64,000 nt of DNA from Oscillospiraceae bacterium (GTDB lineage: Bacteria; Bacillota; Clostridia; Oscillospirales; Oscillospiraceae). The position numbers and the translations under genes were made by a program. Each line of letters starts with the position of its first letter. Position 1 is the first letter of the stretch. Location of the stretch: contig JAFQNL010000013.1 of NCBI GenBank assembly GCA_017395935.1, positions 62,001-126,000 on the forward strand, read 5' to 3'. Positions 4,462-41,650 of this stretch are shown piece after piece. Below the pieces are notes generated by a model that saw only the letters and a program-made list of their open reading frames with translations, ran no database searches and was not told where the DNA came from.

Positions 4462-6087
<1,626 letters not shown>

Positions 6088-6105
6088 TCTCCCCTGTCGC
6101 TTTCT

Positions 6106-6136
6106 CTCCCCGCCCAACCCGGCGGGGAGTTTTCTT
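6106..6136 (+). terminator. groESL terminator 1
   Basis: CTCCCCGCC (6106-6114) pairs with GGCGGGGAG (6121-6129), followed by TTTTCTTTTT. Confidence 0.88.
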
Positions 6137-6141
6137 TTTCT

Positions 6142-6166
6142 GCCCGGCCTTTGCCGGGCTTTTTTC
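6142..6166 (+). terminator. groESL terminator 2
   Basis: GCCCGGC (6142-6148) pairs with GCCGGGC (6153-6159), followed by a run of T. It backs up the terminator just upstream, giving a double stop after groEL. Confidence 0.85.
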
Positions 6167-6169
6167 TGT

Positions 6170-6197
6170 TTGAATCGCCCTCAGTCGGGCATACAAT
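6170..6197 (+). promoter_or_regulatory. Promoter of the ClpC-like gene
   Basis: TTGAAT (6170-6175), a 16-base spacer, TACAAT (6192-6197). No CIRCE or clear CtsR heptad repeat is visible beside it, so control by heat shock cannot be claimed. Confidence 0.65.
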
Positions 6198-6227
6198 AGA
6201 GCAAACACATCTGAGGAGGAGCATAAA

Positions 6228-8651
6228 ATGGGACAGACTGCCTTTTCGCCGGCGGCTCAGGAGGCCATTGGCTATTCCCGGGAGATTGCCTGTCAACTGG
6301 GGCACGGCTATGTGGGATCAGAGCACCTTCTGCTCTCTCTGCTCCATTTTGGGAGCGGAAAAGGCGCTCAGCTGCTGCTGCGCCATGGTATTCAGGAGGT
6401 TCCTCTGCGTCAGTCGGTCGTACGGCTGGTAGGCTCAGGCACTCGGGGCGTTGGCCCGGATCTGGGTCTCACGCCTTGCTGCCGTCACGTGATCCAGTTG
6501 GCCGCCGAAGAGAGTCGCCGGCTTCAGGCCGGATCGGTCACTCCTGATCATCTGATTCTGGGTCTGCTTCGGGAGCGGGATGGAATGGCCCGCCTGGTCC
6601 TCAGCCGGGCTGAGCTGGACTGTCCGGCTGTCTACCGGCAGCTGACGGTCCTGTTGGGAGACAAGTCCCCATCCTCTCCCCCGGCCAAAAAGCCGGGTCG
6701 GGAGACCGAGGCTGTCCGGGAGTCCAAGCTGTTGGATCAGTTTTCCCGCGATTTGACTCGGATGGCCGAGTCCGGGCGGCTGGACCCGGTGACTGGCAGA
6801 GAACGGGAACTGGATCGGATTATCCAGATTCTCTGCCGGCGGAGCAAGAATAACCCCATACTGCTGGGCGATCCCGGAGTAGGCAAAACCGCTCTGGCTG
6901 AGGGGCTGGCTCAGCGCATTGCCGAGGGCGCAGTTCCCTCCCTGCTGGCTGATAAGCGGGTACTGTCGGTGGATCTCTCCTCCACAGTAGCAGGCACCAA
7001 ATATCGGGGAGAATTCGAAGAGCGCTTCAAGCGGATCATACGGGAGGTCCAGCGGCTGGGCAATGTGATCCTGTTCATTGATGAGATTCACACGCTGGTC
7101 GGTGCCGGCGCCGCCGAAGGCTCTATTGACGCGGCCGATATTATCAAGCCGCCGCTCAGTCGGGGAGAACTTCAGGTCATAGGCGCTACCACTCAGGAAG
7201 AATACCGGAAGCACATCTGTAAGGATGCCGCTTTGGCACGGCGTTTTCAGCCTGTTCAGGTGGCTCCGCCCGACCGGGAGAGCGCCATCGCCATTCTTTC
7301 CTCCCTCCGTTCCCGGTATGAGGAGCATCATCATCTCACCATTGCGCCAGATGCCCTTGAGGCAGCGGTGGATTACTCCATTCGCTATCTGCCCGATCGG
7401 TATCTGCCGGACAAAGCCATTGACCTGATGGATGAAGCCGCTGCTCAGGTCCGGATCCGGCAGGAGACTCCATCCGGCCAATATCAACAGCTGGCCCGCA
7501 GACAGCAGCAGCTTCGTCAGCAGCTGGCAAGTACCATTCAGCGGCAGGACTTCGAACAGGCCGCTCTCCTCCGGGACGCGGAACTGGACTTCCTTCGTCA
7601 GATGCAGGAAGCCCGGCAGTCTGCCAAACTCGCCGACTGCCGGGTAGAGCGGGAGGATATTGCCCGGGTGGTCTCCGGATGGACGGGAATCCCTCTCTCC
7701 GCCATTACAGAGGACGAGGCAGGACGACTGCTCCGCCTGGAAGAGGAACTCTCCCGCCGGGTCATCGGGCAGCAGGAGGCTGTACACGCCGTCGCGGCGG
7801 CAATCCGCCGAAGCCGGGCCGGACTTCAGGAGGAGAGCCGACCGATCGGCTGCTTTCTCTTTGCCGGGTCCACCGGAGTGGGGAAAACTGAGCTCTGCCG
7901 GGCATTGGCACAGGCCCTGTTCGGACAGGAGGAGGCTTTGCTGCGGCTGGATATGAGTGAGTATATGGAGGCTCATGCCGTCTCCCGGCTGATCGGATCA
8001 CCGCCCGGCTATATCGGCCATGAAGAGGGGGGACAGCTCACAGAGGCAGTTCGCCGGAGACCATATCGGGTGATCCTGTTGGACGAGCTGGAAAAAGCGC
8101 ACAGCGATATCTGGAACCTGCTGCTGCAGATCATGGAAGAAGGAACACTTACCGACAGTCAGGGTAATAAGGCCGACTTTCGGAATACGGTACTGGTCAT
8201 GACCACCAATGCAGGCGCTGAAGTGCTTAACCGGCAGAAGATGGGGTTTGCTGGCCGCACTGAGCCCGACCATCAGGCTGAGGCCAGACGAGCTCTGTCC
8301 CGTCTCTTCCGGCCGGAGTTTCTCAACCGGCTGGACGAGATCATCTGTTTTCATCGTCTGGATCAGGCTGCCCGGCTGGAGATCGCCCGGCTTATGGCAG
8401 ATCAGTCGGCCAAACGCTTTGAAAAGTTGGGGATCGCCCTCTCCCTTTCCCAGCAGGCCATCGCCCTCATTGCCAGTCAGGGCGAGGCAGAAGGCTATGG
8501 TGTCCGCCCGCTCCGGCGTTATATCCGCCATCAACTGGAGGATCAGGCCTCCGCTCTCATTTTGGAAGGAAAACTCCCGCCCGGCAGCCGGCTTCAGGTC
8601 GACTGTCAGGGGACGGAACTGACGCTGAGCGCAATGGATCTGGCCTGCTGA
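6228..8651 (+). CDS. clpC: ClpC/ClpA-family AAA+ unfoldase, 807 aa
   Basis: Start set by GAGGAGGA upstream of 6228. Domains: Clp N-terminal double repeat (about 5-145); first AAA+ module with Walker A G-D-P-G-V-G-K-T near 215 and Walker B I-L-F-I-D-E-I-H near 280; a coiled UVR-like middle segment near 415-460; second AAA+ module with G-S-T-G-V-G-K-T near 545. An M-G-F tripeptide in the C-terminal module occupies the place of the ClpP-binding loop, so it probably feeds ClpP. No CtsR/McsA/McsB genes lie beside it, and groESL is next door, giving a small proteostasis cluster. ClpC is favoured over ClpB by the short middle domain. Confidence 0.88.
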
Positions 8652-35174: not shown

Positions 35175-36116
35175 ATGGCCGCCATTGTCTCTATCGGTGA
35201 AATATTGATCGACCTGACGCAGGTCGATGTCAACGATGCCGGTGTGCCCGTGTTTGCTGCCTATCCCGGCGGCGCGCCTGCCAATCTGGCGGTAGCTGCT
35301 GCCCGTCTGGGTGGTGACGCTGCCTTTGTGGGCAAGGTGGGCGACGATAATTTCGGCGAGCTGCTGCGCAAAACGCTGGAAGAAAACCATGTGGATACCT
35401 CCTGCCTCTATACTGCCGAGACGGAAAAGACGACTCTGGCTGTTGTAGCACTGGACGAGGCGGGTGAGCGTTCCTTTACCTTCTACCGCTCTCCCGGTGC
35501 TGATACACTATTGACCCAGAAGGAGGCAGCTGCCGGCCTTGCCAAGCACCCCCAGATCCTCCATTTCGGTTCGGTAGCCCTGACAGAGGAGCCGGCCAAA
35601 TCGGCCGTTCTGGCTGTGGCTGCCATGGCTCGCCGGATGGGCGCACTGGTCACCTTTGATCCCAATTACCGGGCGAATCTTTGGCCCAGCGAGGCGGACG
35701 CTGTTTACAGCATTAAGCGGGCCCTTCCTCTGTGCGATATCGTCAAGCTCAGCGACGAGGAGCTCAAGCTGCTCACCGGCACCTCTGATCTGGTCAAGGG
35801 TGCCAGAGAGCTCACGGAGACCGGCATCATTATGGTACTGGTTACCTTGGGTGAAAAGGGCGTATTCTACTACTACCGTGGTCAGACAGGTACCATTCCC
35901 GGTGTGCCGTGTAAGGTAGCCGACACCAACGGCGCGGGAGATACTTTCTTCGGTGCGTTCCTGGCCCGGCTTACCAAGCTGGATCTGAGTCTTCCGATTC
36001 CGATTCCTGAGCTCCATGATATGCTGGCCTTCTCCAACAAGGCGGCTTCCATCACTGTCAGCCGCAGCGGCGCCATTCCTGCTATGCCCACGCTGGCAGA
36101 GGTGCTGGGAGAATAA
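35175..36116 (+). CDS. PfkB-family carbohydrate kinase (fructokinase-like)
   Basis: A 313-residue ribokinase-family kinase. The sugar-binding start reads S-I-G-E-I-L-I-D near 6, with G-G-A-P-A-N-L-A near 32-39. The C-terminal D-T-N-G-A-G-D-T-F-F near 249-258 carries the catalytic Asp and anion hole. The pattern is closest to bacterial fructokinases. It phosphorylates a sugar with ATP in the cytoplasm; no transporter or glycosidase is nearby to fix the sugar. AAGGAGAG precedes the start. Confidence 0.88.
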   Translation: MAAIVSIGEILIDLTQVDVNDAGVPVFAAYPGGAPANLAVAAARLGGDAAFVGKVGDDNFGELLRKTLEENHVDTSCLYTAETEKTTLAVVALDEAGERSFTFYRSPGADTLLTQKEAAAGLAKHPQILHFGSVALTEEPAKSAVLAVAAMARRMGALVTFDPNYRANLWPSEADAVYSIKRALPLCDIVKLSDEELKLLTGTSDLVKGARELTETGIIMVLVTLGEKGVFYYYRGQTGTIPGVPCKVADTNGAGDTFFGAFLARLTKLDLSLPIPIPELHDMLAFSNKAASITVSRSGAIPAMPTLAEVLGE

Positions 36117-36118
36117 GT

Positions 36119-36400
36119 ATGGGAAACGGGCTCTTAATCTATCTGGCGGTCATAAATTTGGCTGCCTTTCTTCTCTACGGGATTGATAAGCTTAAGGCAC
36201 AGCGGGGTGCCTGGCGGATCAGCGAGGCGACCCTTCTCCTCTCCGCTCTCGTTGGCGGCAGCGTCGGCGCTCTTCTGGGCATGAAGCTCTTTCGCCACAA
36301 GACCCTGCATCCCAAGTTTACCATCGGTGTACCTGCCATTCTGATTCTGCAGATTGCGCTGGTTGGAATGCTGATTTTCCGTGGACTGCTGCCTTTGTAA
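36119..36400 (+). CDS. DUF1294 membrane protein
   Basis: A 93-residue protein with three membrane helices and the DUF1294 signature G-I-D-K-L-K-A near residue 21, a W-R-I-S-E near 32, and a K-L-F-R-H-K-T near 56. Function unknown. Its ATG lies 2 bases after the kinase stop, so the two are cotranscribed. Confidence 0.88.
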   Translation: MGNGLLIYLAVINLAAFLLYGIDKLKAQRGAWRISEATLLLSALVGGSVGALLGMKLFRHKTLHPKFTIGVPAILILQIALVGMLIFRGLLPL

Positions 36401-36420
36401 TAAGCACACTGGAATATACC

Positions 36421-36450
36421 AAAAAGACCTGACATAGTCAGGTCTTTTTT
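36421..36450 (+). terminator. Terminator after DUF1294
   Basis: AGACCTGAC (36425-36433) pairs with GTCAGGTCT (36437-36445), flanked by A-run and T-run. Confidence 0.9.
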
Positions 36451-36518
36451 CTCTGGGCGTTCGACCGATTTTACGGCGCTCCGCGCCTCAAGAGTCCGCT
36501 GGTTCGGACCAACTTCAA

Positions 36519-36553
36519 CAAAAAAGAAAAGCACCTGCTTCTCTGCAAGTGCT
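36519..36553 (-). terminator. Terminator downstream of the tRNA-Pro fragment
   Basis: On the minus strand AGCACTTGC (36545-36553) pairs with GCAGGTGCT (36530-36538) with one wobble, and a T-rich run follows (36519-36529). It is what a tRNA gene ending at 36561 would need, supporting a once intact tRNA here. The gap 36,401-36,772 holds this, the DUF1294 terminator, the tRNA fragment and the repeats at 36644-36664. Confidence 0.72.
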
Positions 36554-36560
36554 CTTCATA

Positions 36561-36607
36561 TCCGAGTGACTGGAGTCGAACCAGCGGCCTCTTGAACCCC
36601 ATTCAAA
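36561..36607 (-). tRNA. 3' half of tRNA-Pro(GGG), attachment-site remnant
   Basis: On the minus strand there is an anticodon arm TTTGA-ATGGGGT-TCAAG, whose loop reads GGG at the anticodon position, then variable loop AGGCC, T-arm GCTGG-TTCGACT-CCAGT, 3' acceptor strand CACTCGG and discriminator A. The D-arm and 5' acceptor (a CCGAGTG-like strand) are absent; the sequence turns AT-rich just before the anticodon arm. Tyrosine integrases often use the 3' half of tRNA genes as attachment sites, leaving one such orphan half. CCA is not encoded. Identification of the amino acid rests on the GGG loop. Confidence 0.72.
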
Positions 36608-36643
36608 GCAAAACCCTTTATTTTCAAGGGTTTCCCGGCCCGA

Positions 36644-36664
36644 ATGAGCAATACATGAGCAATA
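36644..36664 (+). repeat. Tandem 10-base direct repeats next to the attachment remnant
   Basis: ATGAGCAATA occurs at 36644-36653 and again at 36655-36664, an 11-base period, flanked by CCCGG and CCGGG. Position 40-60 bases inside the element edge fits integrase arm-type or excisionase sites, but this is inferred only from location. Confidence 0.5.
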
Positions 36665-36772
36665 GACCGGGTCAGAAAAAACAGAAAAAATCCCTCATCC
36701 CTCTTGTCGATTTCTGCCATTTCCTGTATCATTATTTGTATTATTTCACGAAAGATATGGGCGTGATCACTT

Positions 36773-37297
36773 TTGAAGACCAATGACCATTACAACCGAG
36801 ATACGGAACGCTTTGAGCAGCTCTACCGGGAGCACTTCCCGGCGCTGCTCCGTTTTGCTATGGCCCGGCTGAGAGCCCGCGGCAGCACGGGGACCCATCT
36901 GCAGGGGCAGGCGGAAGAGGCGGTACAGGAGACCTTCAGCTTCGCGTGGGTCAACAGAGGGACTCTCTTTGCCAGTCCCGCCCCTCTCGGCTGGCTCATC
37001 AACGTCTGCCATTACAAAGTGCTGGAGCTGCTGCGGGAGGAGCATATGTGGAGCAAGCGTCTCCTGCGGGTCTCCGAGCGCATTACGGAAGGCGGGTCAG
37101 ACGGCGGTCTCCGCCTCCGGGCCGAAATGCGGAGCATCCTGTCGGAAGAAGAGTATACGCTGCTGAAAAAGCTCTATCTGGACGGCTATACATACCGTGA
37201 GCTGAGCCAGGAGATGGGTCTGAAGCAATCGGCTCTGGCCATGCGCATCAAGCGGCTCAAGGAAAGGGTCAGCAGAGAATGGAAAGAAGAAAAATAA
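36773..37297 (+). CDS. Sigma-70/ECF-like RNA polymerase sigma factor
   Basis: A 174-residue protein, apparently from a TTG at 36773 with a weak ribosome site. Region 2-like sequence is near 10-85 (Y-R-E-H-F-P-A-L-L-R-F-A, E-E-A-V-Q-E-T-F-S-F-A-W) and a region 4 helix-turn-helix near 115-165 (E-Y-T-L-L-K-K-L-Y-L-D-G-Y-T-Y-R-E-L). These are hallmarks of small group 4 sigma factors. It is 61 bases before an anti-sigma-like membrane protein, the standard regulatory pair. It may direct the secreted-protein gene that follows. Confidence 0.82.
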   Translation: MKTNDHYNRDTERFEQLYREHFPALLRFAMARLRARGSTGTHLQGQAEEAVQETFSFAWVNRGTLFASPAPLGWLINVCHYKVLELLREEHMWSKRLLRVSERITEGGSDGGLRLRAEMRSILSEEEYTLLKKLYLDGYTYRELSQEMGLKQSALAMRIKRLKERVSREWKEEK

Positions 37298-37358
37298 AAT
37301 TGACAGCCTGTGAAAAAACAGCGCACAGAATGTCATTACCGGATAAGGAGGTTCCAGG

Positions 37359-38216
37359 ATGCGAGTCAACGGGCACAAACACAACTCTGATCTGATGCTG
37401 GACCGGCTCAGCACACAAGAGCTGGAACGGCTGCTCTACACCCCTGAGGGGGAGGAGCCGGATACTGAATTGATTTCCGATGTACTGGAGGTGATCATGG
37501 CCAGGGAAGCAGAGGAGACAGACGCTCCGGCGGTGGATGTAGACGCCGCCTGGGAGGATTTTAAGGAACGCTGCATGGAACAGGACGAGGCCTGTGCGCT
37601 CGCGGACGAAGAACCCCAAAACAAAAAATTGAAAACGGGCAATCATAGCGTCCTTGTTCTTCTGCGTCGTTTCGCCGCTGCCGTTGCCGTGCTCATCCTT
37701 ATGTGCGGCACTGCCTCCGCCTTCGGACTGGATATTTTCCACTGGCTGGCCAGCTGGACCGCCGAGACCTTCCGGTTCTCCGGTCTGGACGATCTGCCGA
37801 TCAGTCAGGATATTCCGGAGGAGGACCCCTATCAGGATCTGAGAGCCGCCGTGGCCGAAGAGACGGATCTCCCCGTCGTCCCCACCAGAGCACCCTTCGA
37901 GGCTGCGGAAGAGGTCACTGTAACCCAGAGACTGGACAGCGTATTCATTCACGGAGAATACAAAAGCGAAGACAAAGAATATACTATTTCAGTAATCGTT
38001 TATGACTCGATAGATTTAATAGGCACAGATTCAATCTTTCTTAAAGATGACTCCATTATTGATAGGCATGAAATCAACCATATCGAGCACTATGTGATGA
38101 AAAACTATGATCACTTCTCATGCGTATGGCATAATGAAAATGTTCAGGTACAGATTCAGGGAAGCCTCACACCAGAGGATCTGGAAAGCATGATTGCATC
38201 GGTATACTGGGAGTGA
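37359..38216 (+). CDS. Membrane anti-sigma-like protein (DUF4367-type)
   Basis: A 285-residue protein with a cytoplasmic acidic N-terminus (about 1-100), one membrane span near 105-125, and an outer domain that resembles DUF4367 proteins at its end (V-M-K-N-Y-D-H-F-S-C-V-W and L-E-S-M-I-A-S-V-Y-W). The last 90 codons are clearly richer in A and T than the first two thirds, so the outer domain may have been exchanged. GGAGG precedes the ATG. Probably holds the upstream sigma factor. Confidence 0.75.
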   Translation: MRVNGHKHNSDLMLDRLSTQELERLLYTPEGEEPDTELISDVLEVIMAREAEETDAPAVDVDAAWEDFKERCMEQDEACALADEEPQNKKLKTGNHSVLVLLRRFAAAVAVLILMCGTASAFGLDIFHWLASWTAETFRFSGLDDLPISQDIPEEDPYQDLRAAVAEETDLPVVPTRAPFEAAEEVTVTQRLDSVFIHGEYKSEDKEYTISVIVYDSIDLIGTDSIFLKDDSIIDRHEINHIEHYVMKNYDHFSCVWHNENVQVQIQGSLTPEDLESMIASVYWE

Positions 38217-38220
38217 TTTT

Positions 38221-38655
38221 GTGCGCCTTGCAATCCAGAAAGCAGGAACTCTGTTTTTAGCCTTCCTGATGATTATTGCCCTGTTTCCGACTGCTCAAGC
38301 TGCCGAAGCCAGAGCCAGCTATTACTTTAGCAGATTTGAGGATTCCGTCACCGCGCTGGGAAACGGTAAGATCGCGGTGGAATTTGATGTCGTTTCCACC
38401 CACACCATGACCACACTGGGCGCCAGCACGGTCTACATTTATGAGAAGCAGTCTGACGGCTCCTACGAAAAGGTCAAGACCTATACCAGAGCCACCGTCA
38501 GCAATATGCTTCAGTCAAACACGACCCACGCCTATTGCTGCATCACCTATCAGGGCAAAGCCGGGACCAAATACTACGCCGTGGTCAACTACTACGCCAA
38601 GGATGCCTCGGGCTACGAAAATTACAAATGCACCACCAACACCGTCACAGCCTAG
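38221..38655 (+). CDS. Secreted beta-rich protein of unknown function
   Basis: A GTG at 38221 following GGGAG gives a 144-residue protein with a signal peptide and A-Q-A-A-type cleavage site near residue 25. An ATG at 38194 overlaps the previous gene and would give a longer, less usual signal. The mature part is Tyr/Thr-rich with no catalytic motif; it may be an Ig-like surface or secreted protein. It is probably in one unit with the sigma/anti-sigma pair. Confidence 0.7.
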   Translation: MRLAIQKAGTLFLAFLMIIALFPTAQAAEARASYYFSRFEDSVTALGNGKIAVEFDVVSTHTMTTLGASTVYIYEKQSDGSYEKVKTYTRATVSNMLQSNTTHAYCCITYQGKAGTKYYAVVNYYAKDASGYENYKCTTNTVTA

Positions 38656-38771
38656 CTTGACGAAACAGGAAGGGAGACTCCGGTCTCCCTTCTTTTTTGT
38701 CCCCGCTGTGAAAATTCCGGTAAAAACTGTCATTCCATCATAGATGACTTCAAACGAGAGCAGTGTATCCC

Positions 38772-39236
38772 ATGGCAGTATCAGCACCGGAGCGGGGAGG
38801 TCCGACCCTCACCTACCCCAGTCTGGAGGAAGCCGCTCTCGCCTTTGCCAAAGCCTACTATCCCCTCACCCGGATCTCCGGCCGTGAATGGTACGCAAAC
38901 CTCTATCAGATCCCCCACCGGGACCCGCCGGAATACTACTATGATGACACCACCGAGGGTGATACCTGCTCTGTCGCCCTGATCCTGCCTCTGTGCTGGG
39001 TCGAATCCTGTCAAATTTACGCAGGGAACATCCACACCCACCCGGCAGGGCCCCGGAGCTTCAATCGGTTTTCCATCCACGACATTACCGCCTATCAATA
39101 CCTGTTGTCACAAAAGCCGGAACACTGCTCCTTCGAGGGCTATCTGGCCACACAGCAACAGATCGTGTACCGCTACAACCTAAACTCAGAAGACAATTGG
39201 CGCCTCCCATGGGAGATCAAGGTGGGGGAGTTTTAG
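38772..39236 (+). CDS. JAB/DUF4329-like protein
   Basis: Start at 38772 (MAVSAPERGGPTLTYPSLEE); a GTG at 38763 is possible. The 154 residues include I-H-T-H-P-A-G at 87-93 and F-S-I-H-D at 100-104, i.e. H-x-H-P followed by S-x-x-D, the metal-binding pattern of JAB-type hydrolases and the DUF4329 family. Such domains occur as toxins or peptide-processing enzymes. No signal peptide is seen. Ribosome site is weak. Role here unknown. Confidence 0.62.
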   Translation: MAVSAPERGGPTLTYPSLEEAALAFAKAYYPLTRISGREWYANLYQIPHRDPPEYYYDDTTEGDTCSVALILPLCWVESCQIYAGNIHTHPAGPRSFNRFSIHDITAYQYLLSQKPEHCSFEGYLATQQQIVYRYNLNSEDNWRLPWEIKVGEF

Positions 39237-39325
39237 GGAGATGCGTTTCCCACAATAGCGATCTGATAGTAAATCAGCATCGCCGAAATCCGTTAGAACA
39301 ATCATTTTATAAGGAGTTGACAAGT

Positions 39326-39826
39326 ATGTGCGTTTCTACACCATCACCACACAGCACAGGCTCAGGCCACAGTCCTGCCAATTCAGACAAGTGGTCTGAC
39401 TTCCCATTCTACACAACATTCCAGAACCAACGTGCTTACTATAGTTCCAAGAGCAAATCTGCTCAAAAGGAATACTACTTTCTATCTTCCTGCAGTCTTT
39501 TTTCCATGGCTTTGGTTCCTGTCGTGAGCTTGGCAACTGATGATTACACACTCGCCAAATATGTAGTTGCTCTGCTGGGTTCAATATCCACCATTTGCAC
39601 TGGCCTCCTCCATCTGAAGCGTCACAAAGATCGCTGGATCCAATCTCGGTCTGTTTGCCAAAGGCTGGATGCAGAATGTAGCCAATTTGAAAACGAAGTT
39701 GGTCCTTACAGTAATCTCCATTCCGATGCCGCCAAGAAACTCTTTACAGAGAACTGTCTGAAACTCATGGGGCAAGAGTTAAGTGAATGGTCCACGACTG
39801 CACAGAACTCCAGCCACCAGAAATGA
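39326..39826 (+). CDS. Two-TM SLATT/DUF4231-like membrane protein, candidate defence effector
   Basis: Start at 39326 (MCVSTPSPHSTGSGHSPANS) is placed by AAGGAG; the longer frame from 38993 is a shadow of the JAB-like gene. Two hydrophobic segments, about 51-71 and 76-97, are separated by a short polar turn (T-D-D-Y-T) and followed by a basic stretch K-R-H-K-D-R-W and a helical tail. This is the SLATT/DUF4231 layout. In known conflict systems SLATT proteins are pore-type effectors partnered with nucleotide-signal or TIR proteins. Base composition is richer in A/T than its flanks. A TIR gene lies 236 bases on. Confidence 0.72.
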   Translation: MCVSTPSPHSTGSGHSPANSDKWSDFPFYTTFQNQRAYYSSKSKSAQKEYYFLSSCSLFSMALVPVVSLATDDYTLAKYVVALLGSISTICTGLLHLKRHKDRWIQSRSVCQRLDAECSQFENEVGPYSNLHSDAAKKLFTENCLKLMGQELSEWSTTAQNSSHQK

Positions 39827-39835
39827 CAGCATCTG

Positions 39836-40033
39836 TCATACTTCGCTTACTGGTTCATATGTCAAACGAAAAATATCTGGTTTGCACGGATATTTCTCCC
39901 CTTTTATTCCGGTAATGATGTAGTCACCCACTTCTGCCTGCATCGTTCCTTCCAGCGTCTCTATCTTAATCGGCTTATCCGTTTGATAGGCTTCGATGAC
40001 AACAGGCTTCTTTTTGTATTTCTTTACTTCCAT
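39836..40033 (-). CDS. Small phage-type protein, 65 aa, unknown function
   Basis: A 65-residue protein, [20 protein letters not shown], with the [21 protein letters not shown] motif that recurs in small proteins of Gram-positive phages. Function unknown. It runs opposite to, and between, the SLATT-like and TIR genes, with GAGGTG before its ATG; its start is only 29 bases from the TIR start, so their control regions overlap. Confidence 0.72.
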
Positions 40034-40062
40034 TTTTTCACCTCAAGAAAGGAGCATAATCT

Positions 40063-40491
40063 ATGCCAAGTCTCCGACCTTATCACTTATTCATCAGCCA
40101 CGCTTGGAAATACGGCGCGGACTATGACCGCTTAGTATCCCTTTTGGACAATGCCCCCAATTTTCAATACTACAATTATTCCGCTCCGAAAGATAAACCA
40201 TTGCACAATCTAGACGAGACCAGTGTAGGAACTGTATTGGAAATCAAAGCTGCGATAGATCGCAAGATCAAACTATGCAGCTGTATTCTCGTTATTTCAG
40301 GTATGTACTATAACAACCGGCGCTGGATGCGATACGAGTTAGAGTCTGCGTCTAAATTCGGCAAGCCAATCATCGCCATCCGTCCATACGGAAATACCGT
40401 TACCCCCAGCGATGTCCAGCAATGCGCAGATGTCATCGTGGGTTGGAATACCAACAGTATCGTTTCTGCCATCAGAGAACACAGCCTATAA
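40063..40491 (+). CDS. TIR-like protein (ThsB/DUF1863, MTH538-type), candidate antiphage sensor
   Basis: A 142-residue protein. The first strand reads Y-H-L-F-I-S-H-A-W (7-15). A second conserved block, S-C-I-L-V-I-S-G-M-Y-Y-N-N-R-R-W (73-88), is followed by M-R-Y-E-L-E-S-A, with Glu92 at the TIR catalytic position, and K-P-I-I-A-I-R-P near 101. This is the MTH538 TIR-like family that includes Thoeris ThsB, which senses phage and makes a nucleotide signal from NAD. No ThsA (SIR2-SLOG) is adjacent; the SLATT-like gene could be the effector. AAAGGAG precedes the ATG. Confidence 0.85.
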   Translation: MPSLRPYHLFISHAWKYGADYDRLVSLLDNAPNFQYYNYSAPKDKPLHNLDETSVGTVLEIKAAIDRKIKLCSCILVISGMYYNNRRWMRYELESASKFGKPIIAIRPYGNTVTPSDVQQCADVIVGWNTNSIVSAIREHSL

Positions 40492-40539
40492 GCGTCTTCT
40501 TCCTTTGACAGGAATCACAGGCCATACAAACCCAGAAAG

Positions 40540-40582
40540 CAACCTCCCTCTCCCATGATATCAGCACGGAAGAGGGAGGTTG
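40540..40582. terminator. Inverted repeat between TIR gene and endolysin
   Basis: CAACCTCCCTCT (40540-40551) pairs with AGAGGGAGGTTG (40571-40582), loop 19 bases. T-runs are weak, but its place between converging genes fits a terminator. Confidence 0.6.
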
Positions 40583-40629
40583 TACGCCGTCTTGGCAGCT
40601 AAGTATCCGTCGGACATGAGCGTCAAAGC

Positions 40630-41310
40630 TCACCCAACCCCCAGCATCTCCCCGAAGGTCTTTTCCCCGGCTACGCCGTCGTCAGCGAGTTTGTGGGTCT
40701 CCTGGAAGTCTTTCAGGGCTCGCTCGGTGGCCGGGCCGAAATCCCCGTCCGCGCTGACGGAGTAGCCATAGCCCTTCAGCAGGCGCTGCAGGCCCCGGAC
40801 GGGGTCGCCCTTGCTGCCCCGTTTCAGTGTTTTGAGTGTCATTTCAAATTCCTCCTCCCGGTCCGGGGTGGTGGCTGTCCGGCAGGGCGTGAGAAACAGC
40901 TCCCGCTCGGCTTGTCTGCGCCGGGTGAGACCTGCCAGCACTTTGCCGCCGGCCTTGTTGTACCGGAGCATGGCCCCGGCGATCTCCGCCCGGCTGCGTT
41001 TGCCGTTTGCGGTGAGCTGGGCGATGGAGCCCACGTTGTAAGTAAAGCTCACCAACGCGTCAAACTCATTCTGGTTCCACTGGTATCCGACATACTTCGA
41101 CACATGCGCCTCGAACCGGGCGCAGTCGGAGCGCAGCAGCTCTGTGGCCTTGTCTTTGGTGATCTTCATGCCCTTGCCGATCTTCACCCCGTCCACAGTG
41201 CCCGTATGGCCGTAGCCAATGGTCCAAACGCCTGCCGGGCACTTGTAGGCAGTCAGCCGGCAGCCCTCAAACTGCCGGAGCAGGGCAAGGCCATTATCGC
41301 TGATCTTCAT
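40630..41310 (-). CDS. Phage endolysin: GH24 lysozyme with peptidoglycan-binding domain
   Basis: Start at 41310 (MKISDNGLALLRQFEGCRLT) overlaps the holin end; the frame to 41439 is not used. The lysozyme domain (about 1-140) has catalytic Glu15 in R-Q-F-E-G and the G-V-W-T-I-G-Y-G-H-T motif at 27-36. The C-terminal part (about 160-225) is a peptidoglycan-binding repeat, with G-D-P-V-R-G-L-Q-R-L-L near 167 and D-G-D-F-G-P-A-T near 185. It cuts the cell wall at lysis after the holin opens the membrane. Last gene of the late operon. Confidence 0.93.
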   Translation of the reverse strand: MKISDNGLALLRQFEGCRLTAYKCPAGVWTIGYGHTGTVDGVKIGKGMKITKDKATELLRSDCARFEAHVSKYVGYQWNQNEFDALVSFTYNVGSIAQLTANGKRSRAEIAGAMLRYNKAGGKVLAGLTRRRQAERELFLTPCRTATTPDREEEFEMTLKTLKRGSKGDPVRGLQRLLKGYGYSVSADGDFGPATERALKDFQETHKLADDGVAGEKTFGEMLGVG

Positions 41311-41650
41311 AGGCACTGTCCTCAGTTGCGACGCCACCGAAGAGTCGATGAAGCTTGTCCGGCATAAGCTCGGGGTTGATCTTGCAGAGATTCTCCAGAA
41401 TGGAGCCCAGCTCCATGAGGGTGATATACACACTAGCACCTCCCACCACGGGAATCGTTATGCCCAGTTCCATAAAGCCCTGAGCGTACTCTACAAGAAG
41501 CGCAAGGATGATCAGCAGCACGAGGCTTGCCTTATGCCAGAGCCCCTCCCGCATCTTGCCGGAGGAGAAGGTGTTGGTGCAGATGGCCTTTACCAGTCCG
41601 GTGATAAAGTCCAGCACGATAAACGCAAACACAACGATGTAGATGTTCAT
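41294..41650 (-). CDS. Phage holin
   Basis: A 118-residue protein with F-I-V-L-D-F-I-T-G-L-V-K-A near residues 9-21 and three hydrophobic segments, the class I holin 4_1 (toxin secretion/lysis) family pattern. It forms lysis holes in the membrane. Its end overlaps the lysozyme start. Confidence 0.92.
   Translation of the reverse strand: MNIYIVVFAFIVLDFITGLVKAICTNTFSSGKMREGLWHKASLVLLIILALLVEYAQGFMELGITIPVVGGASVYITLMELGSILENLCKINPELMPDKLHRLFGGVATEDSAYEDQR

Follow-up and report, generated by a model that had tools for sequence, protein, structure and literature searches.

The cargo region of a prophage in an Oscillospiraceae bacterium encodes a two-helix membrane protein of the SLATT/DUF4231 type, a ThsB-type TIR protein and, on the opposite strand, a small PGDYG-like protein (PGDYG in the following). 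Comparison of loci gives good support to the view that the three genes belong together as a unit, part of the counting being biased by the choice of seeds. The PGDYG gene is the main new element, a regular opposite-strand partner of TIR-SLATT pairs that was described in no paper found (for the survey PMC9503650, this refers to its main text). We give about an even chance to the reading that the three genes are a phage-borne immune module, in which a signal made by the TIR protein would cause membrane disturbance by the SLATT protein while PGDYG restrains the pair and so protects the carrying phage from its own defence.

Locus and prophage setting

The window, i.e. the whole stretch of 64,000 nucleotides that was analysed (contig JAFQNL010000013.1, positions 62,001 to 126,000), contains a prophage, with its late genes (portal, terminase, major head, major tail, tape measure, holin and lysozyme) all located on the minus strand. 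The initial annotation had placed the SLATT-like and TIR genes in an AT-richer island at the lysis end of a prophage. Both parts of this description hold: lysozyme, holin and structural genes were matched, with the three-gene cargo just past the lysozyme gene, and the GC content is 0.43–0.46 between positions 39250 and 40500 compared to about 0.55–0.66 in the phage genes beyond. The cargo genes are arranged in the order SLATT (plus), PGDYG (minus) and TIR (plus), with the coordinates and strands of the open reading frames as annotated initially:

39326..39826, plus strand: SLATT/DUF4231 protein with two transmembrane helices (P0001, 166 aa), candidate membrane effector (from profiles and structural model)
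39836..40033, minus strand: PGDYG-like small protein (P0003, phrog_419, 65 aa), recurrent third component and candidate brake
40034..40062: 29-bp gap between the divergent start codons of the PGDYG and TIR genes (from the sequence)
40063..40491, plus strand: ThsB-type TIR protein (P0002, 142 aa) with W88-x3-E92, candidate maker of an NAD-derived signal
40539..40583: strong hairpin in the intergenic stretch where the TIR and lysozyme genes converge (from folding energy)
40630..41316, minus strand: phage lysozyme with peptidoglycan-binding domain (Phage_lysozyme, 1.5e-39), marking the lysis end
41294..41650, minus strand: holin (Phage_holin_4_1, 5.2e-17)

In the window, the SLATT and PGDYG genes lie tail to tail with their ends 9 bp apart, and the PGDYG and TIR genes head to head with their starts 29 bp apart. 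Because the 29-bp gap contains both Shine-Dalgarno-like stretches, it would not accommodate a full promoter, and each promoter is therefore probably located inside or beyond the gene on the opposite strand. From this layout it follows that transcripts of both strands must overlap, and such transcripts would be expected to counteract each other. A promoter scan of positions 39100–40800 was uninformative (one site compared to 1.8 expected from shuffled sequences). The stretch from 40510 to 40620 has a folding energy of -44.6 kcal/mol on the minus strand (z -3.42) and of -34 kcal/mol on the plus strand (z -2.54); the hairpin within it is a possible transcription insulator. Read-through from the late operon was considered as a route for PGDYG expression, given that both the window and Enterococcus phage IME197 encode lysozyme and holin on the strand of PGDYG. 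It was rejected as a general rule, since the strong hairpin intervenes and since an integrase gene of opposite direction adjoins PGDYG elsewhere.

The gene directly upstream of SLATT (38763–39236, plus strand) encodes a protein of 157 aa (P0004), for which a PADLOC JAB match with an E-value of 0.0097 and no Pfam match was obtained. Its HxHP...SxxD motif is presumably JAMM-like. The protein was rejected as a fourth member of the module, no copy being present in the other loci compared.

The SLATT and TIR proteins

The assignment of P0001 as a SLATT/DUF4231 protein with two transmembrane helices was corroborated by scores above the curated cut-offs for DUF4231 (PF14015, 63.7 bits, cut-off 24.7) and NCBIfam SLATT_1 (NF033634, 79.2 bits, cut-off 41), while the Pfam families SLATT_3 (22) and SLATT_1 (15.9) scored below their cut-off of 26.3. 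Two hydrophobic stretches of membrane length, predicted to be transmembrane helices, are found within the modelled helices 27–70 and 75–98 (AlphaFold2, pLDDT 86.3). Pfam and NCBIfam profiles gave no match to a separate ligand-binding domain in P0001. The start codon (ATG) of its gene is preceded by AAGGAG.

P0002 is a TIR protein of the ThsB/MTH538 type with the W..E region described initially, according to ThsB_TIR (PF08937, 45.7 bits, cut-off 21.2), PADLOC ThsB (2.5e-14) and a profile of P0002 and ten relatives, which matched MTH538 (1eiw, 1.7e-10) and ThsB structures. W88 and E92 are invariant in all 11 aligned TIR sequences including that of the window, and E92 is kept in 38 of 41 TIR proteins of the module, the other three having a gap at this position. 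The glutamate of W-x3-E is taken here to be catalytic, as in TIR NADases. None of the 10 proteins scanned at 35175–41650 (the pair included) matched SIR2, SLOG, macro or caspase domains, in line with the absence of a ThsA beside the pair noted earlier.

Two further claims of the initial annotation, that the module consists of two genes and that this make-up was undescribed, were not supported. The opposite-strand PGDYG gene recurs as a third component, and TIR-SLATT pairs of firmicute phages are already treated in a survey of 2022 (PMC9503650). According to that survey, TIR domains of firmicute phages typically adjoin a SLATT gene, sometimes accompanied by an HTH factor or a zincin-like peptidase, and the SLATT protein is predicted to be a membrane effector regulated by an ADP-ribose derivative; the TIR-SLATT pair is thus of an already predicted kind. 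Our literature search found nothing joining DUF4231 with TIR. The pair was seen directly in Enterococcus phage IME197 and Staphylococcus phage S-CoN_Ph24. The two accompanying genes named in the survey were rejected as members of the module: the two zincin-like neighbours scanned (L065 and L168) are of the IrrE/M78 type, L174 has an HTH gene of the repressor type, and all were read as lysogeny genes.

Recurrence of the PGDYG gene

A small phage-type gene on the opposite strand between the pair had been mentioned in the initial annotation. The gene is real and located as described (phrog_419, 7.5e-26), and it recurs as a third component. P0003 itself scored 23.5 bits against PGDYG (PF14083), for which the curated cut-off is 27; its homologues in L260 (51.1 bits) and L186 (32.1 bits) exceed this value, and its best BFVD matches bear the name PGDYG. 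A search of titles and abstracts for PGDYG, PF14083 or phrog 419 returned plant-related papers only, and no function of PGDYG was found there.

Profiles for SLATT, TIR and PGDYG were run over six-frame translations of fetched loci. Three scans with SLATT seeds yielded 27, 19 and 2 viral loci on 44 distinct contigs (four shared). PGDYG was found in 41 of these 44 contigs and TIR in 43, most seeds having come from PGDYG-bearing loci; for this SLATT type, and with the same seed bias, a recurrent pairing of SLATT with TIR is thereby supported. All three genes were present in 27/27 loci of the first scan (with PGDYG on the opposite strand in all 27), in 17/19 of the second (the misses being L282, with SLATT alone, and L284, with TIR-SLATT-TIR) and in one of two in the third (PGDYG is lacking on the contig of L174), so that the SLATT-selected contigs without PGDYG are those of L174/L266, L282 and L284. 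Among 13 viral contigs selected by TIR, 11 contained both other genes, the misses being L168 (TIR alone) and L174. The seeds of the first and second SLATT scans and of the viral TIR scan were all taken from PGDYG-bearing loci, and these figures are therefore biased upward; two of the three seeds of the third SLATT scan came from loci without PGDYG.

A survey of genomic TIR relatives and a search of phage records with the window's proteins were independent of these seeds, the genomic seeds coming mostly from PGDYG-less loci. All five phage records matched by P0001 also had a PGDYG match. Among the best 80 of 350 genomic TIR relatives, four loci have a single SLATT gene; PGDYG was found in three of these four, and in none of the other 76. 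In the opposite direction, the best 80 of at least 556 confirmed viral PGDYG relatives had both partners in 27 cases and neither in 53, in the stretch examined. Within the phylum, a SLATT match was obtained in four of 398 genomes, two of them with PGDYG. The window's own genome contains all three genes, and G485 (L260/L265) contains SLATT with a double PGDYG and no TIR detected by profile within 9 kb. The other two are G414, with a SLATT gene interrupted by internal stops, a TIR gene and no PGDYG within 3 kb, and G640, with a weak SLATT match and neither TIR nor PGDYG.

As a background, 798 of 50,697 phage records (1.6%) have a PGDYG match, as do three of 200 genomes of the host family, the window's own included. 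The matches are spread over phages of many bacterial host genera and include a haloarchaeal virus. One three-gene case (L083) is located in a Latescibacteria chromosome assembly, where no phage gene was noticed among the open reading frames listed, as judged by reading and not by phage-family profiles. By the same kind of reading, a large neighbour in L083 is a gene of the restriction-methylase type. As many loci stem from related phages, none of these counts represents independent events.

Layout across loci

SLATT and TIR genes within 3 kb of each other were found in 78 loci, among which several places, including that of the window, are represented more than once. Joining loci more than 0.9 alike in both proteins left 43 non-redundant loci. 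With PGDYG reversed relative to the other two genes, the order SLATT-PGDYG-TIR was found in 23 of them, SLATT-TIR-PGDYG in 16 and TIR-SLATT-PGDYG in two, while the remaining two (L086 and L174) have TIR-SLATT without PGDYG. In this set, which includes loci found via PGDYG, the PGDYG gene is located on the opposite strand in 41/41 cases, and in every one it terminates -37 to +11 bp from where the preceding sense gene ends (overlap by 4 in 15/41). Between the two main layouts, TIR proteins are on average only 21% alike, SLATT proteins 35% and PGDYG proteins 56%, so that the association of SLATT with PGDYG spans two TIR groups. The cysteine of the Y-P-C stretch is replaced by valine in 17 of 43 distinct PGDYG proteins of the module compared to one of 49 others; part of the module's PGDYG proteins thus form a distinct group. 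An integrase-like gene is encoded downstream on the TIR strand, within about 2.5 kb, in 25 of the 43 loci.

Possible function of the PGDYG protein

For the proposed immune module, a competing phage would activate the TIR protein, which would convert NAD+ to a nucleotide signal, as suggested by its family and the conserved Glu92. The signal would switch on the SLATT membrane protein, whereupon the membrane would be disturbed and the infected cell stopped. That the TIR protein signals to SLATT is inferred from the two families and their pairing. PGDYG would restrain the pair, most likely by binding either the signal or SLATT, and the carrying phage would be spared its own defence. A role of PGDYG as a brake or off-switch is our preferred, still unproven, interpretation.

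Small phage proteins soaking up TIR-made signals are known from Tad2 and other sponges (PMC12657218, PMC12043709), and a Tad2-like (anti-Thoeris) domain is fused to PGDYG in two of 92 distinct PGDYG proteins, both of phages (L199:5004-5486 and L241:5007-5474; 1e-22 and 7.4e-22). Ten long PGDYG proteins were scanned in total, of which these two contain the Tad2-like domain, one DUF551 and seven no other Pfam match. P0003 itself, modelled with five strands and a C-terminal helix (AlphaFold2, pLDDT 93.3), gave no match to Tad2 (PF11195). On one contig, that of L174, a SLOG cluster4-like protein (5843-6250, minus strand) occupies the PGDYG slot, tail to tail with SLATT and overlapping it by 6 bp; its score of 24.7 bits lies below the curated cut-off of 26.3 (1.9e-5). 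Viral SLOG domains have been proposed in PMC9503650 to counter cADPR-like signals. Both the Tad2 fusions and the SLOG protein in the slot hint at a handling of the TIR signal. The eight long PGDYG proteins that lack a Tad2-like domain count against this, and so do, for the module as a whole, the 53 of the best 80 viral PGDYG loci with neither partner in the stretch examined. Two newer sponge families are 'Sequestin' and 'Lockin', on which our literature search returned nothing, and PGDYG may belong to one of them.

A different division of labour is rather unlikely, in our estimate, and survives best among the alternatives: SLATT would be a toxin neutralised by the PGDYG protein or by antisense RNA of its gene, with the TIR protein acting as a sensor that upsets the balance. 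It is suggested by the distance test, carried out with 41 loci (L086 and L174, lacking PGDYG, were left out; loci found via PGDYG are included). PGDYG distances correlate better with those of SLATT (r 0.86 with PGDYG last, 0.43 with PGDYG in the middle) than with those of TIR (0.65 and 0.15, respectively), values to which shared phage descent contributes. In L260/L265, SLATT is retained in the absence of a TIR match by profile within 9 kb, and a tandem PGDYG-PGDYG gene on the opposite strand overlaps its end tail to tail; the two genes (L260:1450-2360) lie beside tRNA-Glu and tRNA-Met genes. TIR loci whose effector is a caspase or an 8xMP protein lack PGDYG. Both the closer tie to SLATT and the TIR-less case are as compatible with an antitoxin acting on SLATT as with a sponge. 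Against the toxin-antitoxin form, shared phage descent alone yields such a correlation and the difference in r is a nominal one; L282 is a SLATT gene with neither PGDYG nor TIR, and 53 of the best 80 viral PGDYG loci have no SLATT in the stretch examined.

Quite improbable is a positive role, in which PGDYG would be the module's copy of a common phage protein, serving as bait or sensor that reports an incoming phage to the TIR protein. Relatives in 798 of 50,697 phage records from many host genera could mark an infection, and phage proteins are described as triggers of TIR proteins (PMC12847820). However, a trigger made within the module should switch the module on in the lysogen, and the opposite-strand layout would favour separate over joint expression.

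Relatives of the TIR protein

If the TIR protein depleted NAD+ directly, SLATT would not be a receiver of a signal and the two would be separate cargo. TIR proteins can act in this way (PMC12847820), and P0001 has the above-mentioned lack of a matched ligand-binding domain. We nevertheless consider this very unlikely, as TIR accompanies SLATT closely in 43 of 44 contigs and the two genes overlap or almost touch in one layout, and as the same TIR subfamily adjoins caspase-like and membrane proteins elsewhere, as expected of a signal maker. The latter was seen with the best 80 of 350 genomic relatives, sorted by neighbours within 2.5 kb using profiles for caspase, 8xMP, SLATT and double-SLATT built from two to seven seeds each. 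A caspase-like neighbour was found in 35 loci, an 8xMP membrane protein in 30, a double-SLATT protein in six, a single SLATT with PGDYG in three, 8xMP together with a single SLATT in one and none of these in five. By swapping its neighbours, the window's TIR type behaves as expected of a maker of a diffusible signal. The subfamily occurs in bacteria and archaea; the closest relative of P0002 in the one-genome-per-species scan, among the best 80 of 350, is 61% identical and encoded in Ruminococcus sp. (L057).

Several arrangements are observations in their own right. A common pair of TIR and membrane protein is that of the window's TIR subfamily with 8xMP (PF24838 by seed), found in 30 of the 80 loci, in bacteria and archaea (L059, L060, L066, L081 and others). 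Proteins in which two SLATT domains are fused adjoin the same TIR type, without PGDYG, in L012, L016, L017, L063, L076, L079, L085, L094 and L118; they consist of SLATT_3 and SLATT_1 by Pfam in the first three and were assigned by local profile in the others. In plasmid records of Rhizobium, Klebsiella and Serratia, TIR genes of this kind adjoin DUF4231 genes in either relative orientation. A genome of the window's family encodes a caspase-domain protein, a TIR protein of the window's subfamily and a second TIR protein in a row (L004:490-2421), a locus that is type IV Thoeris-like.

It is highly improbable that TIR-SLATT cargo simply happens to land alongside PGDYG as a regular phage gene close to the attachment site. 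The downstream integrase-like genes (25/43 loci) and the presence of PGDYG in many phages might suggest this. However, PGDYG separates SLATT from TIR in 23 of the 43 loci and follows both in 18, with the opposite strand and the tail-to-tail arrangement kept in 41/41; it occurs in L083 without a phage gene noticed among the open reading frames listed, and its background frequency is 1.6% of phage records.

Comparison with known systems

The nearest relatives of the module are the TIR-SLATT pairs of the firmicute phages Javan281 and SN10 (PMC9503650), in which a TIR gene is likewise located beside a gene for a SLATT protein with two transmembrane helices. The main text of that survey names HTH and zincin genes and contains no occurrence of PGDYG; the records of both phages have a PGDYG match. 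Type IV Thoeris consists of a TIR protein and a caspase-like protease and uses N7-cADPR (Rousset 2025, via PMC12847820). The window's TIR groups with TIR proteins that often adjoin caspase-domain proteins (35 of the best 80 relatives; examples are L006, L011 and L004), whereas SLATT and PGDYG are encoded in place of the protease.

TIR proteins are described as producers of signals that act on effectors, membrane proteins among them (PMC11204291, PMC12847820). In type II Thoeris, as outlined in PMC11204291, the TIR signal likewise acts on a membrane effector, a ThsA with transmembrane and macro domains; the window has SLATT instead of a macro match, plus the extra opposite-strand gene. A phage-borne TIR with membrane proteins is also reported for the P2-like E. 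coli phage AC1, from which three cloned genes protect (PMC9122126); the window's prophage shares this combination, AC1 being a phage of E. coli. In DRT10, a reverse transcriptase is combined with a SLATT protein needed for defence (PMC12632851), and the proposed SLATT regulator there is a repeat cDNA, in contrast to the TIR product proposed here. The sponge Tad2 is linked to PGDYG by the two fusions, while P0003 itself has no Tad2-like match.

Type I Thoeris combines ThsB with a SIR2-SLOG ThsA. The ThsB-type TIR is common to both systems, and neither SIR2 nor SLOG was matched among the proteins scanned at 35175–41650.

Implications

More tentatively than for the module itself, PGDYG proteins might be seen as forming a large family that counteracts TIR signalling (or SLATT effectors), and temperate phages as carrying weapon and opposite-strand antidote as a unit, each expressed at the expense of the other. 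Prophages must repel competitors without harming themselves, and the three-gene unit would be a concrete and testable answer to this problem. If the proposed role of PGDYG is correct, it would be the first role for a small-protein family spread over bacterial phages and an archaeal virus, and inspection of the slot beside the effector gene would provide a new route to anti-TIR proteins.
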